A program made the translations under genes and the position numbers. Positions 32,268 to 36,825 of a DNA stretch of 64,000 nt are shown piece by piece. The stretch's first letter is position 1. Every line of letters starts with the position of its first letter. Below the pieces are notes generated by a model. That model had not been told where the DNA came from. It did no database searches and worked only from the letters and a program-made list of their open reading frames with translations. Source of the DNA: Spirosoma rhododendri (GTDB lineage: Bacteria; Bacteroidota; Bacteroidia; Cytophagales; Spirosomataceae); the NCBI RefSeq assembly GCF_012849055.1, contig NZ_CP051677.1, positions 1,338,501 through 1,402,500 on the forward strand. The letters run 5' to 3'.

Positions 32268-33023
32268 TCAAATCCGCATCTCAATACCTTCCTGCCGCAG
32301 GTAGCCTTTCAACGCGGGAATGTCGATTTCGCGGAAGTGGAAAATGCTGGCAGCCAGCCCGGCGTCGGCCTTTCCTGTTGTGAACACGTCGACGAAGTGA
32401 TCCATCGTACCGGCCCCTCCCGACGCGATGACGGGGATGTTGGCCGCACCCGAAATTTGTGCGGTCAGGTCGAGTGCAAAACCGGCTTTCGTACCGTCGG
32501 CGTCCATCGATGTCAGCAGCAGTTCGCCCGCGCCACGATTCTCCACTTCTTTCGCCCACGCAATCGTGCGAAGTTCGGTTGGTTTGCGTCCGCCGTGGGT
32601 GTGTACGATATGCTCCCCATCAACGTAGCGCGTATCGATGGCTACAACGACGCACTGACTGCCAAATTCCAGCGCCAGCTCGTTGACCAGATCGGGGTTA
32701 CGCACCGCCGACGAATTGATCGAAATCTTGTCGGCCCCCGCGTTCAGCAGTGCCGATACATCGGCCACCGACGAAATACCGCCACCGACGGTAAACGGAA
32801 TATTGATTGTATGCGCGACGTTCCTGACCAGCTCAATCAGCGTTTTACGCTCGTCGACAGTAGCGGTAATGTCTAAGAACACCAGTTCGTCGGCACCTTG
32901 CTCGGCATACATGGCCGCCAAAGCCACCGGGTCACCCGCGTCGCGCAGATTTACGAAGTTGGTACCTTTCACGGTGCGCCCGTCTTTGATGTCAAGGCAG
33001 GGAATAATTCGTTTTGTCAGCAT
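32268..33023 (-). CDS. hisF: Imidazole glycerol phosphate synthase subunit HisF
   Basis: 251 residues. HisF is the cyclase barrel that uses ammonia delivered by HisH. Its expected catalytic residues are D11 ([13 protein letters not shown]) and D130 ([11 protein letters not shown]). The phosphate-binding loops TVGGGISSV and [13 protein letters not shown] are intact. Its ATG overlaps the GNAT stop by one base, so it belongs to the same transcript, ending the partial operon hisH-hisA-(unknown)-(GNAT)-hisF. Confidence 0.97.
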
Positions 33024-33445
33024 CAGTAGCTGTCGATTAGTTTTCGTTGCATATACAGTTTGGGATCGTCGGGAAAAGTGAAACCGAACTGTTCATAAAG
33101 CGTATGAGCATCGACCGTGACCAGCGTCCAGCGTCGAAGACCCTGCAAGTCAGGATAGTCGACGATATACTGCACCAGCCGTTTCGACAATCCTTTTCCA
33201 CGATGTTCTTTCACCACAAACACGTCCGATAGGTAGGCAAAGGTGGTGTAGTCGGTAATGACGCGGGCAAAACCAACCTGCTGATCGGCAAGGTATACGC
33301 CAAAGCACAGCGAGTTGTCGACCGCTTTGCGAACCAACTCCATCGGCATATTTTTCGCCCAGTACGATTCCTGACTCAAGAACTGATGGACAAGATTTAG
33401 ATCAAGCCGTGATTTATCTGTGCTGATAATGTAGTCGTCGGTCAT
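33023..33445 (-). CDS. GNAT family N-acetyltransferase
   Basis: 140 residues with a compact GNAT fold: [21 protein letters not shown], the acetyl-CoA loop [14 protein letters not shown], and the C-terminal strand [14 protein letters not shown]. The acceptor substrate is unknown. It lies between the 219-residue unknown gene and hisF and overlaps hisF by one base, so it is carried on the histidine transcript without an obvious role in that pathway. Confidence 0.85.
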
Positions 33446-33480: not shown

Positions 33481-34140
33481 CTAAAAGAGCTGGTTCAGCT
33501 CAGTCAGGATTTCGGTCACGTCGCGTAATTCAGGGATATCGGTGTATTCTCTGTAGAAAGTAGACGGATTACTGTACGAATAGAACCGGAAACCATCATG
33601 ACTGAAGATCGAGAAAGCATAAGCCTCTCCATCGCTGACAGCCATCCGACCACGCGTTCTGCGAGCTTTCACCGTGACGGTCCCGTCAGACGATAATTCG
33701 TTCCAAGTCGAATCTTTGGGAAAGCTGGCGTAATATCTGGCTTGTACATCTGACCATGTCGGTAGCGTAAGCAGGTGTTTGTCAACCAGTTTATTCCAAT
33801 CATCCATCGATACTCTTGCTTTTAGATAGTCGCGCTGTACGCTAGGCGTGCCAGTTGGTGTATATCGAATTCTATACCCATCAACGGTAAGCCGCTGGTT
33901 AGTTTTGCGGATTCGATATACGCTGTGTGCGGCCCCGCGCACCAGACCCTGCCTGTTCCAGACATACACTTCGTACTCCCCCTCTTTTAATGTTGGTGTT
34001 CGCCAGCCAAGTTGCTGAGTGAGGTGATCCAGTTCAGCCTGCCACCTTTCGTCATACTGATCAACAGTCTTTGTCGCCTGCGCGCTAGCAAGCAGTCTGA
34101 CGAAAAACAAGGTAATTACCAGCAGACCATACCTCATCAC
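33481..34140 (-). CDS. Secreted protein of unknown function inside the his operon
   Basis: 219 residues. MMRYGLLVITLFFVRLLASA is a signal peptide, so the product is exported, unlike its neighbours. The body contains ERWQAELDHLTQQLGWRTP, many Tyr and Arg, and DIPELRDVTEILTELNQLF at the end. No family is recognised. Its start overlaps the hisA stop by one base, so it is translationally coupled to hisA. An exported protein in a histidine operon is unexpected. Confidence 0.75.
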   Translation of the reverse strand: MMRYGLLVITLFFVRLLASAQATKTVDQYDERWQAELDHLTQQLGWRTPTLKEGEYEVYVWNRQGLVRGAAHSVYRIRKTNQRLTVDGYRIRYTPTGTPSVQRDYLKARVSMDDWNKLVDKHLLTLPTWSDVQARYYASFPKDSTWNELSSDGTVTVKARRTRGRMAVSDGEAYAFSIFSHDGFRFYSYSNPSTFYREYTDIPELRDVTEILTELNQLF

Positions 34141-34859
34141 TACTGATTAATTTTCGACAGTTCCTTCAACGTAACACGCCCCTCGTAAATCGCCTTGCCG
34201 ACAATGACGCCGAACAGGCCCATATCGGCCAGCGTCTCGATATCAGCCATGTTGCTGACCCCGCCACTGGCGATGATGTTCAGGCTGGGCAGTTGCTCCT
34301 GCATCGTACGGTACAGTTCAAACGACGGTCCCTGTAGCAGTCCGTCTTTGGCTACGTCGGTGCTGATAACGTACTGAATACCTTTCTCGACCCAGTTCTG
34401 CACAAAGTCATACACCCATACATCGGTGCCTTCTTCCCAGCCGCTGACGGCAATTTTCTCGTTTTTCGCGTCGGCACCCAGGATAATCTTCTCGGCTCCC
34501 TGCTGCGACAGCCAGCGTTCCATCACGTCGGGCTGCTTAACGGCGATGCTACCGCCCGTCACTTGCCTGGCACCGCACTCAAACGCAATCCGCAGATCGT
34601 CGTCGGACTGAACACCACCGCCGAAATCGACGTGAAGGCTGGTTTTGCCCGTAATCAGTTCGAGCACTTTCCAGTTAACAACATGCTTCGCCTTTGCCCC
34701 GTCGAGGTCGACCAAGTGCAGGCGCGTCAGGCCAGCGTCCTCAAACTGTTGCGCCACTTCCAGCGGGCGGGCGTTGTATTCTTTTTTCTGACTGTAATCG
34801 CCCTGCGTCAGCCGGACAGCTTTACCGTCGATGAGGTCGATAGCGGGAATGATATGCAT
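34140..34859 (-). CDS. hisA: ProFAR isomerase HisA
   Basis: 239 residues. HisA isomerises ProFAR to PRFAR in histidine synthesis. D8 (IPAIDLIDGKAVRL) and D130 (LGADAKNEKIAVSGW) are the expected catalytic residues, and the phosphate loops VDFGGGVQSDDD and ASGGVSNMADIE are intact. The 82-base gap after hisH holds an inverted repeat, so hisH-hisA transcript levels may differ. Confidence 0.97.
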   Translation of the reverse strand: MHIIPAIDLIDGKAVRLTQGDYSQKKEYNARPLEVAQQFEDAGLTRLHLVDLDGAKAKHVVNWKVLELITGKTSLHVDFGGGVQSDDDLRIAFECGARQVTGGSIAVKQPDVMERWLSQQGAEKIILGADAKNEKIAVSGWEEGTDVWVYDFVQNWVEKGIQYVISTDVAKDGLLQGPSFELYRTMQEQLPSLNIIASGGVSNMADIETLADMGLFGVIVGKAIYEGRVTLKELSKINQ

Positions 34860-34941: not shown

Positions 34942-35529
34942 TTATAACCGTAAGAAGTTCTCAAGTATACGCTGCCCGACATTGCCGCTGATTTCGGCGT
35001 GAAACTGAGCCGCGTAGAAATTGTCGCGGTGCAGCATCGCGCTGAATGGCCGGCCGTATTCACAAACCGCCGTGGTATGTTCGCAGACGTCGGCGGCATA
35101 GCTGTGGACGAAGTAAACGTAATCGCTTTCCGATAGCCCTGTCGTCAGCGGACTTTTCAGCGAGTGAATGCTGTTCCAGCCCGTGTGCGGCACTTTCAGC
35201 CCCACGTTGCCCGGTAGTCGGCGCACGTCGATGTCGAAGATGCCCATGCAGGTCGCGTCGTTTTCTTCCGAGTGGCGGCACATCAGCTGCATCCCGACGC
35301 AGGTACCCAATACCGGCTGTGTCAGCGACGGAATCAGTTTGTCGAGGCCGCGCTGCCGCAGGTACGCCATGGCCGTGCTCGCTTCGCCCACGCCGGGAAA
35401 GATCACTTTGTCGGCCGAGCGAATTTCGGCTTCATCGTCGGTAAGCAGGTAGCTGGCCCCCAGCCGGTCGAGCGCGTACATTACCGACTGCACGTTCCCC
35501 GCGTTGTATTTGATAATGACCGTTTTCAT
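34942..35529 (-). CDS. hisH: Imidazole glycerol phosphate synthase subunit HisH
   Basis: 195 residues from ATG 35529. HisH is the glutamine amidotransferase that feeds ammonia to HisF. The catalytic triad is C77 (LGTCVGMQLM), H177 and E179 (QFHAEISG). The usual Pro between His and Glu is Ala here. GVGEASTAM forms the oxyanion region. It is the first structural gene behind the his leader peptide and terminator, and the start is only a few bases after the terminator T run. Confidence 0.96.
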   Translation of the reverse strand: MKTVIIKYNAGNVQSVMYALDRLGASYLLTDDEAEIRSADKVIFPGVGEASTAMAYLRQRGLDKLIPSLTQPVLGTCVGMQLMCRHSEENDATCMGIFDIDVRRLPGNVGLKVPHTGWNSIHSLKSPLTTGLSESDYVYFVHSYAADVCEHTTAVCEYGRPFSAMLHRDNFYAAQFHAEISGNVGQRILENFLRL

Positions 35530-35536
35530 AAAGCAA

Positions 35537-35604
35537 AAGCCCGGCTGATAAACCGGGCTTGGGTATGGCTGTGAGGAAAAATCCAGAAACAATCGTACCG
35601 CCCG
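35537..35604 (-). promoter_or_regulatory. Histidine operon attenuator: antiterminator and terminator
   Basis: In the minus-strand transcript, the terminator arms aagcccgg (35560-35553) and ccgggctt (35544-35537) pair around an eight-base loop, followed by ttgcttt just before hisH. An alternative pairing joins cgggcggta (35604-35596) with tacc-caa-gcccg (35565-35554): nine pairs with a three-base bulge, which uses the left terminator arm and so prevents it. A small upstream stem (ccgt/acgg) can occupy the antiterminator. Together with the leader peptide this is a complete ribosome-mediated attenuator. Function is inferred from structure. Confidence 0.85.
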
Positions 35605-35607
35605 TCG

Positions 35608-35652
35608 TTAACGGTGGTGATGGAGATCAATAATTGTCTGGCTATAACTCAT
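35608..35652 (-). CDS. Histidine operon leader peptide
   Basis: A 14-codon frame reads MSYSQTIIDLHHHR and stops. Three consecutive His codons (35614-35622) lie immediately before the Arg codon and stop. When charged His-tRNA is scarce the ribosome should stall here, leaving the antiterminator free to form. When it is plentiful the ribosome reaches the stop and covers the antiterminator. The ATG lies four bases after the -7 element, so the message is likely leaderless or nearly so. Its position fits hisH, 78 bases downstream. Confidence 0.85.
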   Translation of the reverse strand: MSYSQTIIDLHHHR

Positions 35653-35656
35653 GTAA

Positions 35657-35687
35657 CAAAAGTACCGGACGCAGGGCGCAAAATCAA
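35657..35687 (-). promoter_or_regulatory. Promoter of the his leader (TTG-N20-TACTTTTG)
   Basis: On the minus strand, TTG at 35687-35685 and TACTTTTG at 35664-35657 are separated by 20 bases, an exact match to the Bacteroidota consensus and the same spacing as the tRNA-Phe promoter. Transcription should begin within a few bases of the leader ATG at 35652. Confidence 0.78.
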
Positions 35688-35702
35688 CTGACGTATTGAA
35701 AC

Positions 35703-35767
35703 TGTCTCAAACAGCATCTTGCTGTTTGTTTGAAGACTAAGCAAACAGCAAGATGCTGTTTGAGACA
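35703..35767. repeat. Perfect 26-bp inverted repeat after the LLM gene
   Basis: Arm 35703-35728 is the exact reverse complement of 35742-35767, with a 13-base loop. Its right edge is two bases from the LLM stop. It separates that gene from the his promoter and probably terminates the LLM transcript. Confidence 0.8.
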
Positions 35768-35769
35768 AG

Positions 35770-36825
35770 TTATTGAGCTATTTCGACGGGCACTGCCTGC
35801 AACGCTTTGCGAACAGCCGGAGCGACTTTCGTACCGAACAGTTCGATAGATCGCAGGTTTTGCTTGTGCGAAATCAGGTGCCCGCCGATCATTTGGCCGA
35901 GGTAACGCGTGTTCTGAAACAGTTCGTGGAAATGCAGAATCTTGTCGATTACCTGCTGCGGGCTACCAACCATGAGCGGCCCGTATTTGCGCGTCTGCTC
36001 GTACTGCTCACGGCTAATAGGTGGCCAACCCCGCTCCCGCCCGACCCGATTCATCAACAGCTCATAGGGTGGCCAGAACTCGTTCGATGCCTGCTGCGAG
36101 TCGTCGGCGATGTAGAACTGAGAGTTAGCCGCCAGTTGCAGCTTACTCACATCATGACCAGCCTTCTCCGCCGATTCACGGTATAAGTTTATAAATGGCA
36201 CGAACCGCTCCGGTGTCCCGCCCAGCATTGCTACCGTCATCGGCAGGTTGAGCCGCCCCGCCCTTACGGCCGATGCGGGCGTACCGCCAACGGCAATCCA
36301 GATCGGCAGTTTCGGTTGCAAAGGGCGCGGGTAGATTCCGGCTTGTTTCAACGGTGCCCGAAGCTTTCCTGACCACGTTACCTGTTCGCTTTCATTGATC
36401 GCCAGCAACAGGCTCAGCTTCTCCGTAAATAGCTCATTGTAGTCGCTCAGGTCGTAGCCGAACAGTGGAAACGACTCGGTGAACGACCCGCGCCCGGCCA
36501 AAATTTCCGCCCGACCATTCGAGATCAGGTCCAGCGTAGCGAAGTTTTGAAACGTGCGCACCGGGTCGGCCGAACTCAGCACCGTTACGGCGCTTGACAG
36601 CCGAATGGTTTTGGTTTGAGCCGCAGCCGCAGCCAGTATCACCTCGGGGGCCGAAATGATAAAGTCGGGGCGATGGTGTTCACCCAGCGCAAACACATCC
36701 AGCCCAACTTCGTCGGCCAGTTTTATCTCTTCGAGCAGTTCCTGCATTCGCTGATGTGCGTTGACCGCCTGCCCTGCTTTGTTGTCGGGATTTACCTCTC
36801 CGAAACTACTGATGCCTAGTTCCAT
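35770..36825 (-). CDS. LLM class flavin-dependent oxidoreductase
   Basis: 351 residues, start MELGISSFGEVNPDNKAGQA. The luciferase-like TIM barrel shows DVFALGEHHRPDF, the flavin region RLSSAVTVLSSADPVRTFQ, LISNGRAEILAGRGS, and LPIWIAVGGTPASAVRAGRL. It should be a monooxygenase or reductase using reduced flavin; the substrate is not known. A perfect hairpin follows its stop. The upstream gene on the same strand (DUF72) is 74 bases away. Confidence 0.88.
   Translation of the reverse strand: MELGISSFGEVNPDNKAGQAVNAHQRMQELLEEIKLADEVGLDVFALGEHHRPDFIISAPEVILAAAAAQTKTIRLSSAVTVLSSADPVRTFQNFATLDLISNGRAEILAGRGSFTESFPLFGYDLSDYNELFTEKLSLLLAINESEQVTWSGKLRAPLKQAGIYPRPLQPKLPIWIAVGGTPASAVRAGRLNLPMTVAMLGGTPERFVPFINLYRESAEKAGHDVSKLQLAANSQFYIADDSQQASNEFWPPYELLMNRVGRERGWPPISREQYEQTRKYGPLMVGSPQQVIDKILHFHELFQNTRYLGQMIGGHLISHKQNLRSIELFGTKVAPAVRKALQAVPVEIAQ

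Follow-up and report, generated by a model that had tools for sequence, protein, structure and literature searches.

The hisH gene in the window, a stretch of 64,000 nucleotides from Spirosoma rhododendri, is very probably preceded by a transcription attenuator that would sense charged tRNA-His by means of a translating ribosome. The genome is 6.05 Mb, and its genus is coded g1 below. The parts of the attenuator, their conservation, covariation in the terminator, and a mutual fit of the antiterminator arms are observed.

The mechanism itself appears to be classical. What would be new is the probable leaderless start, the position ahead of hisH, and a family of leaders in which the regulatory codons are exchanged. 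A conserved attenuator that apparently starts at base +1 offers a testable case for ribosome-polymerase synchronisation in a Shine-Dalgarno-poor phylum. About a hundred candidate leaders for His, Tyr, and Phe genes are located (58 in the family, 38 in the order, and 10 in the class), and they include phenylalanine hydroxylase under apparent Tyr control.

Parts and geometry of the hisH leader

The minus strand, read from 35664 to 35529, carries TACTTTTG-TTAC-ATG, the leader ORF, the antiterminator, the terminator, and hisH (Table 1). The earlier note had described a histidine attenuator at this site. Its leader, antiterminator, and terminator are all found where it had placed them, and its nine antiterminator pairs are confirmed. 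That reading is under-interpreted; the promoter and the probable leaderless start were overlooked.

Table 1. Features of the hisH leader and presumed operon (positions in the window)
Feature	Positions	Strand	Remark
-33 element candidate, TTG	35685..35687	minus	20 nt 5' of the -7 box
TACTTTTG	35657..35664	minus	match to Bacteroidota sigma-A -7 consensus TAnnTTTG
Predicted transcription start	35652	minus	A of leader ATG; from box position
Leader ORF, MSYSQTIIDLHHHR and stop	35608..35652	minus	14 codons
Leader start codon, ATG	35650..35652	minus	
Regulatory His codons, CAT CAC CAC	35614..35622	minus	
Leader stop codon	35608..35610	minus	
1:2 hairpin, ACCGTT/AACGACG/GGCGGT	35597..35615	minus	would sequester antiterminator left arm if leader untranslated
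Antiterminator left arm, CGGGCGGTA	35596..35604	minus	
Antiterminator right arm, TACCCAAGCCCG	35554..35565	minus	overlaps terminator 5' arm
Intrinsic terminator, AAGCCCGGTT/TATC/AGCCGGGCTT, then TTGCTTT	35537..35560	minus	
hisH, glutamine amidotransferase subunit of IGP synthase	34942..35529	minus	controlled gene; PF00117
hisA	34140..34859	minus	downstream in presumed operon; PF00977
ORF between hisA and GNAT gene	33481..34140	minus	
GNAT acetyltransferase	33023..33445	minus	within presumed operon, between hisA and hisF; PF00583
hisF	32268..33023	minus	PF00977

The name hisH is based on similarity and on the hisA and hisF neighbours, and the assignment of hisA versus hisF, both PF00977, is our own reading. 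A luciferase-like monooxygenase gene (Pfam) precedes the leader. Between the two lies a near-perfect long palindrome (35703-35767), a dispersed repeat that matches 50 places in the genome when partial copies and both strands are included, which may terminate the upstream transcript. Matches to microRNA and RNA-OUT models at about 35700-35771 sit on this inverted repeat; all fall under their gathering scores and were rejected.

In Flavobacterium psychrophilum, the sigma-A box TAnnTTTG occupies positions -12 to -5 (PMC9723704; this and the other papers cited are drawn on in part). The position of the box in the window therefore makes the A of this ATG the predicted start, and the hisH leader, with TACTTTTG 4 nt ahead of its ATG, is probably leaderless. 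In the genome of the window, 35 of the 50 TAnnTTTG-N4-ATG sites examined begin an ORF of at least 120 codons, some of these ORFs reaching the end of the sequence read (manual count). Among these 50 of the 58 sites in the genome, the hisH leader is the only one seen by eye to hold a codon run for one amino acid; a boxed ORF with one His upstream of hisG is treated apart from this reading. Model R1, a covariance model built on 53 His leaders only, gives no second full-length match below E 0.25 in the same genome.

The leader ORF has the cluster of end-product codons known from classical attenuation, HHH within 14 codons, and an intrinsic terminator stands between the leader and the first gene. 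The terminator forms a hairpin of 10 pairs, followed by a T-rich but interrupted tail (TTGCTTT). Three terminator-like sites are found within 35400-35800, versus 0.5 expected. The antiterminator pairs CGGGC with GCCCG and GGTA with TACC around a 3-nt bulge. It is the minimum-free-energy fold (-18.1 kcal/mol) when the RNA up to 35608 is omitted and the terminator 3' arm is unmade, a fold equalled or beaten by 6 of 200 shuffles. When the 3' arm is included, the terminator outcompetes it.

For the entire leader, the folding energy is -33.7 kcal/mol (z -2.9). The energy of the antiterminator in the window is matched by 4 of 200 shuffles and its occupancy of the terminator arm by 139 of 200; by itself, this antiterminator exceeds chance only moderately. 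The part of the window sequence that contains the 1:2 hairpin, folded alone, has a z of 0.17 and is within chance.

The order of events can be proposed as follows. RNA polymerase would begin the transcript with the A of the leader AUG, and this 5'-terminal AUG would be bound directly by a ribosome. Such binding suits a phylum with little Shine-Dalgarno use, and Bacteroidota are described as generally without Shine-Dalgarno sequences (PMC3155529). When His-tRNA is ample, the ribosome would reach the stop codon and cover the left arm, which lies 6-14 nt past the first base of the stop; the terminator would then form, and transcription would stop ahead of hisH. When His-tRNA is scarce, the ribosome would stall on the HHH codons and the left arm would stay free. 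The antiterminator would then capture the terminator 5' arm, and hisH-hisA-...-hisF would be transcribed. If the leader is not translated, the 1:2 hairpin would hold the left arm, making termination the default. From the DNA we infer the start site, stalling, termination, regulation, default state, and extent of the operon. The bacteria in which classical attenuation was elucidated rely on Shine-Dalgarno pairing for ribosome loading.

The edge of a ribosome lies about 12-13 nt beyond the first base of its A site. Over 54 leaders, the median distance to the beginning of the left arm is 29 nt from the first His codon, 19 nt from the last, and 6 nt from the first base of the stop; the last of these distances ranges from -31 to 12. 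Given that edge, a ribosome stalled at the first His would leave the left arm free, and one at the stop codon would cover most of it. The antiterminator is placed to be masked by a ribosome at the stop and free when the ribosome is at the regulatory codons. In the window, the three distances are 18, 12, and 6 nt, respectively. Among the leaders listed, those of the Dyadobacter group have the left arm inside the ORF, 3' of the His codons.

Leaders ahead of hisH across the family

The gene hisH is present in 118 of 121 genomes of the family. The upstream regions of 110 were read (30 and 80), with eight left out (G113, G022, G014, G084, G117, G061, G073, and G093). A leader was defined as TAnnTTTG, 3-5 nt, ATG, and 8-30 codons with at least two His. 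Such a leader stands ahead of hisH in 58 of the 110, spread over 20 of 33 genera, and 1 of 2200 dinucleotide-shuffled upstreams satisfies the same rule. The leaders were collected with a minimum of one His, and G094, with a single His, was then removed; two His are found in 7 leaders, three in 17, four in 23, and five in 11. Named loci with such a leader account for 13 of 80 and comprise three titled as Spirosoma, seven as Dyadobacter, two as Siphonobacter, and one as Cellulophaga sp. BC115SP, a name that seems to be wrong.

No leader under the rule is found in the other 52 upstreams, of which G042, G033, and G009 offered less than 160 nt of sequence. One of the 52, G038, has a full-length model match about 870 nt 5' of hisH. 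The genera g12, g27, g31, g22, and g19 have no hisH leader in the stretches read. Thirty hisG upstreams were also scanned, 23 of them from these five genera, and none of the 23 holds a boxed His-rich leader before hisG. The hisG upstream of G109 has an unboxed ORF with HH.

The spacing between box and ATG bears on the leaderless start. It is exactly 4 nt in 55 of the 58 leaders, 3 nt in two, and 5 nt in one, under a rule that allowed 3-5 nt only, and a spacing of 4 nt is what a leaderless leader predicts. An attenuator that is real and begins farther upstream, with an ordinary 5' untranslated region on its leader, is judged unlikely. A match to a consensus differs from a mapped start, and five His-rich leaders before hisG outside the order have a box whose start is 17-33 nt upstream of the ATG, so a 5' untranslated region is compatible with the design. 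Against this reading stand the fixed spacing, the finding by eye of only two further His-rich ORFs without the strict box (G040 and G069), and the over-representation of TAnnTTTG-N4-ATG in the genome of the window (58 sites versus 34 for the reversed control). A TTG lies 17-23 nt 5' of the box in 32 of the 58 leaders (raw count).

For structural comparison, 71 leaders were reduced to 63 distinct ones and, after removal of near-duplicates, to 53 for alignment. A script detected a stem followed by a T-rich tail in all of the 63 but G023, thus in 62. In the alignment of 53, terminator pairing holds in 93.1% of cells and in 21-60% when one side is slid. Compensatory cells, with both sides changed, number 47 versus 12.9 in shuffles, and 0 of 500 shuffles are as high. 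The number of terminator pairs with a compensatory change (6) and the number of pair types are within the range of shuffles (125 and 216 of 500, respectively).

A rival reading is translational control, in which a hairpin would mask the hisH start and translation of the leader would release it. In its favour, just 7 nt separate the terminator stem from the hisH ATG in the window. The same distance is about 6-186 nt in relatives (median 27, 54 leaders), which disfavours sequestration of the hisH start as a conserved mechanism. With the T-rich tail also kept in nearly all distinct leaders, translational control is considered very unlikely, and transcription attenuation remains the preferred reading.

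Among the leaders listed, many relatives have GGCAGAAC after the stop, and its partner there is GTTCTGCC, which spans terminator arm and loop. In other genera, again among the leaders listed, GGAA.GGCT pairs with AGCC.GATTCC. In the window and its nearest relative, the left arm CGGGCGGTA pairs with TACC.GCCCG, and the pairing in the window is a derived version. Alignment A2 holds 26 leaders of the GCAGAAC type and two of the type in the window. Its antiterminator is paired in 86.4% of cells and in at most 54% when slid. The A2 antiterminator has no excess of covariation (451 of 500 shuffles as high), and its paired cells are not above column shuffles (81 of 500); it shows hardly any variation in this alignment.

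Because one group gives no covariation excess, each leader's own arms were compared with swapped arms across genera. Over 19 genera, the antiterminator residual is -2.44 kcal/mol, and 2 of 10,000 permutations are as good; relatedness is handled in these permutations through one genome per genus only. In the same comparison, the 1:2 hairpin gives 129, 11, and 333 of 10,000 for three selections of genera. The antiterminator folding energy is below that of shuffles, with a mean z of -2.1 and 42 of 62 leaders having at most 10 of 200 shuffles as good. Arm occupancy is a weak statistic, with just 11 of 62 leaders at or below 10 of 200.

A chance short ORF ahead of the ordinary terminator of the upstream gene would account for the 1:2 stretch and the arm occupancy in the window, both of which are within chance. 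It would not account for leaders in more than half of the upstreams read, set against a single shuffle, nor for the covarying terminator and the fit of the arms across genera, and it is regarded as extremely improbable. This conservation settles the reality of the leader in the window despite the moderate signal of the single sequence. The earlier note had made its reading depend on conservation of the His codons and paired arms in close relatives. Codons, arms, and terminator are kept, and the interpretation as a histidine attenuator is well supported at the level of sequence.

A second boxed short ORF is found before hisG in the same genome, outside the window (G000:C1:3323963-3324022, minus strand, locus L219). 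It recurs in 12 relatives (L248, L263, L271-L277, and L279-L281), giving 13 cases (ten in g1, two in g18, and one in g29) with a spacing of 4-5 nt. These ORFs often end in an FRHRRHH-like sequence; the copy in the genome of the window has a single His. By eye, none of the 13 has a clear intrinsic terminator. The stretch between the ORF and hisG is 25-36% C and 14-25% G, and a second TAnnTTTG box is present in the ten g1 genomes. Rho-dependent control or two promoters are possible explanations.

Leaders with other codons in the order and class

Model R1 was searched in 390 genomes of the order. Matches at E of at most 0.1 occur in 298 of these, a figure that includes many weak partial matches and is excluded as a count. 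Forty non-family matches (39 full-length) were read, hand-picked from the top among the matches listed (E 8e-10 to 6e-5). Of these 40 hand-picked matches, 38 have a leader with codons suited to the gene that follows, and two have no leader; they come from five other families. Of the fitting leaders, 17 are Tyr-rich before phenylalanine hydroxylase, 13 are Phe/Tyr-rich before DAHP synthase, seven are His-rich and assigned to hisH, and one is His-rich before hisG. The seven include L334 of G385, where hisH was not seen in the fetched stretch. Pfam identified the next gene in five cases (two with PF00793, one each with PF00351 and PF01634, and one hisH with a glutamine amidotransferase domain); the remainder were read from similarity of the N-terminus.

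Of the 38 fitting leaders, 31 have a strict box at a distance of 4-8 nt from the start codon (4 nt in 13, 5 nt in 14, and more in 4), by which these leaders are predicted to be leaderless or nearly so. At hisH itself, the leaderless or nearly leaderless form is seen in the family of the window and in one other (f12, spacing 5). Terminators are present in 36 of 37 leaders tested, a set that leaves the hisG case aside. The arms fit their own partners in 36 leaders, many closely related (0 of 5000 permutations), and still do so when a single leader represents each combination of family and amino acid (7 of 5000, n = 7). By type, the figures are 0 of 5000 for Tyr and 21 of 5000 for Phe/Tyr; the non-family His subset alone has no such fit (897 of 5000, n = 7).

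That one model finds the His, Tyr, and Phe/Tyr kinds suggests common descent. Since this chassis recurs before aromatic amino-acid genes elsewhere in the order, with Tyr or Phe/Tyr codons, it looks like a modular attenuator family. We lean towards the view that Cytophagales inherited one leaderless or near-leaderless chassis that is switched between pathways by codon exchange, with loading at a 5'-terminal AUG in place of a Shine-Dalgarno start. His codons would serve before hisH, Tyr codons before phenylalanine hydroxylase, which makes Tyr, and Phe/Tyr codons before DAHP synthase.

A class-wide search of 295 genomes matched 39 at E of at most 0.001, seven of which belong to the same order or nearer. 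Of 22 class loci read, 12 resemble chance terminators and 10 have a leader that fits its gene, as identified by eye: five His before hisG, four Tyr before phenylalanine hydroxylase, and one Phe/Tyr before a prephenate dehydratase-like gene. The last (L385 of G559, in another family of the class) is FYF-rich, and its box begins 16 nt ahead of the ATG. The five His leaders have predicted 5' untranslated regions of about 5-21 nt and are predicted not to be leaderless. They indicate that His attenuation occurs elsewhere in the class.

Relation to described systems

The enterobacterial hisL leader (RF00514) likewise stands ahead of his genes and shares a His-codon leader peptide and an antiterminator that competes with an intrinsic terminator (PMC3896937, PMC8305728). 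hisL precedes hisG, whereas the leader described here precedes hisH. hisL has 18 residues with seven consecutive His, compared with 14 codons and three His here (two to five in the family), and the hisH leader is probably leaderless. The comparison with RF00514 that the earlier note had suggested gives no match at the gathering score in the window and none even at E of at most 10 in 35400-35800. T-box riboswitch models of Rfam match neither the window nor 40 related loci. No known Rfam family reaches its gathering score at the leader or in those 40 loci; at E of at most 10, the leader region has matches below threshold only, among them RF01772 (E 0.18) and RF00513 Trp_leader (E 2.1), and these were rejected.

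According to a 2010 paper, which added a case in bacilli, demonstrated leader-peptide systems had until then been confined to Proteobacteria and Actinobacteria (PMC2965389). A paper on the his genes of this superphylum does not use the word 'leader' in the main text as drawn on here (PMC8305728). The Bacteroid-trp RNA motif (RF01692) is likewise a candidate cis-regulatory RNA in Bacteroidetes (PMC2864571). RF01692 has no match at the gathering score in the window or in the 40 related loci. The motif presumably carries Trp codons.

Among the papers listed from the literature searched, with subscription journals and preprints largely outside it, there is no recognised description of a leaderless attenuator in Bacteroidota or of a Tyr leader before phenylalanine hydroxylase. 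The earlier note knew of no described example in this phylum, but 'strong clues' to attenuation by leader peptides in F. psychrophilum were published in 2021 (PMC9723704). That suggestion shares the phylum and the inferred mechanism; in the portions of the paper drawn on, it is given neither a gene nor a sequence nor a leaderless start.

In both Bacteroidota maps consulted, leaderless mRNAs make up a minority: 5.5% in F. psychrophilum (PMC9723704) and, taken as 5' untranslated regions under 10 nt, about 3.7% in B. thetaiotaomicron (PMC7366714). Leader-peptide-like sORFs are also mentioned for B. thetaiotaomicron (PMC7366714). The trpL leader RNA of Sinorhizobium meliloti also begins with the ATG of its leader peptide (PMC7298713); it differs in its Trp codons and in belonging to another phylum.
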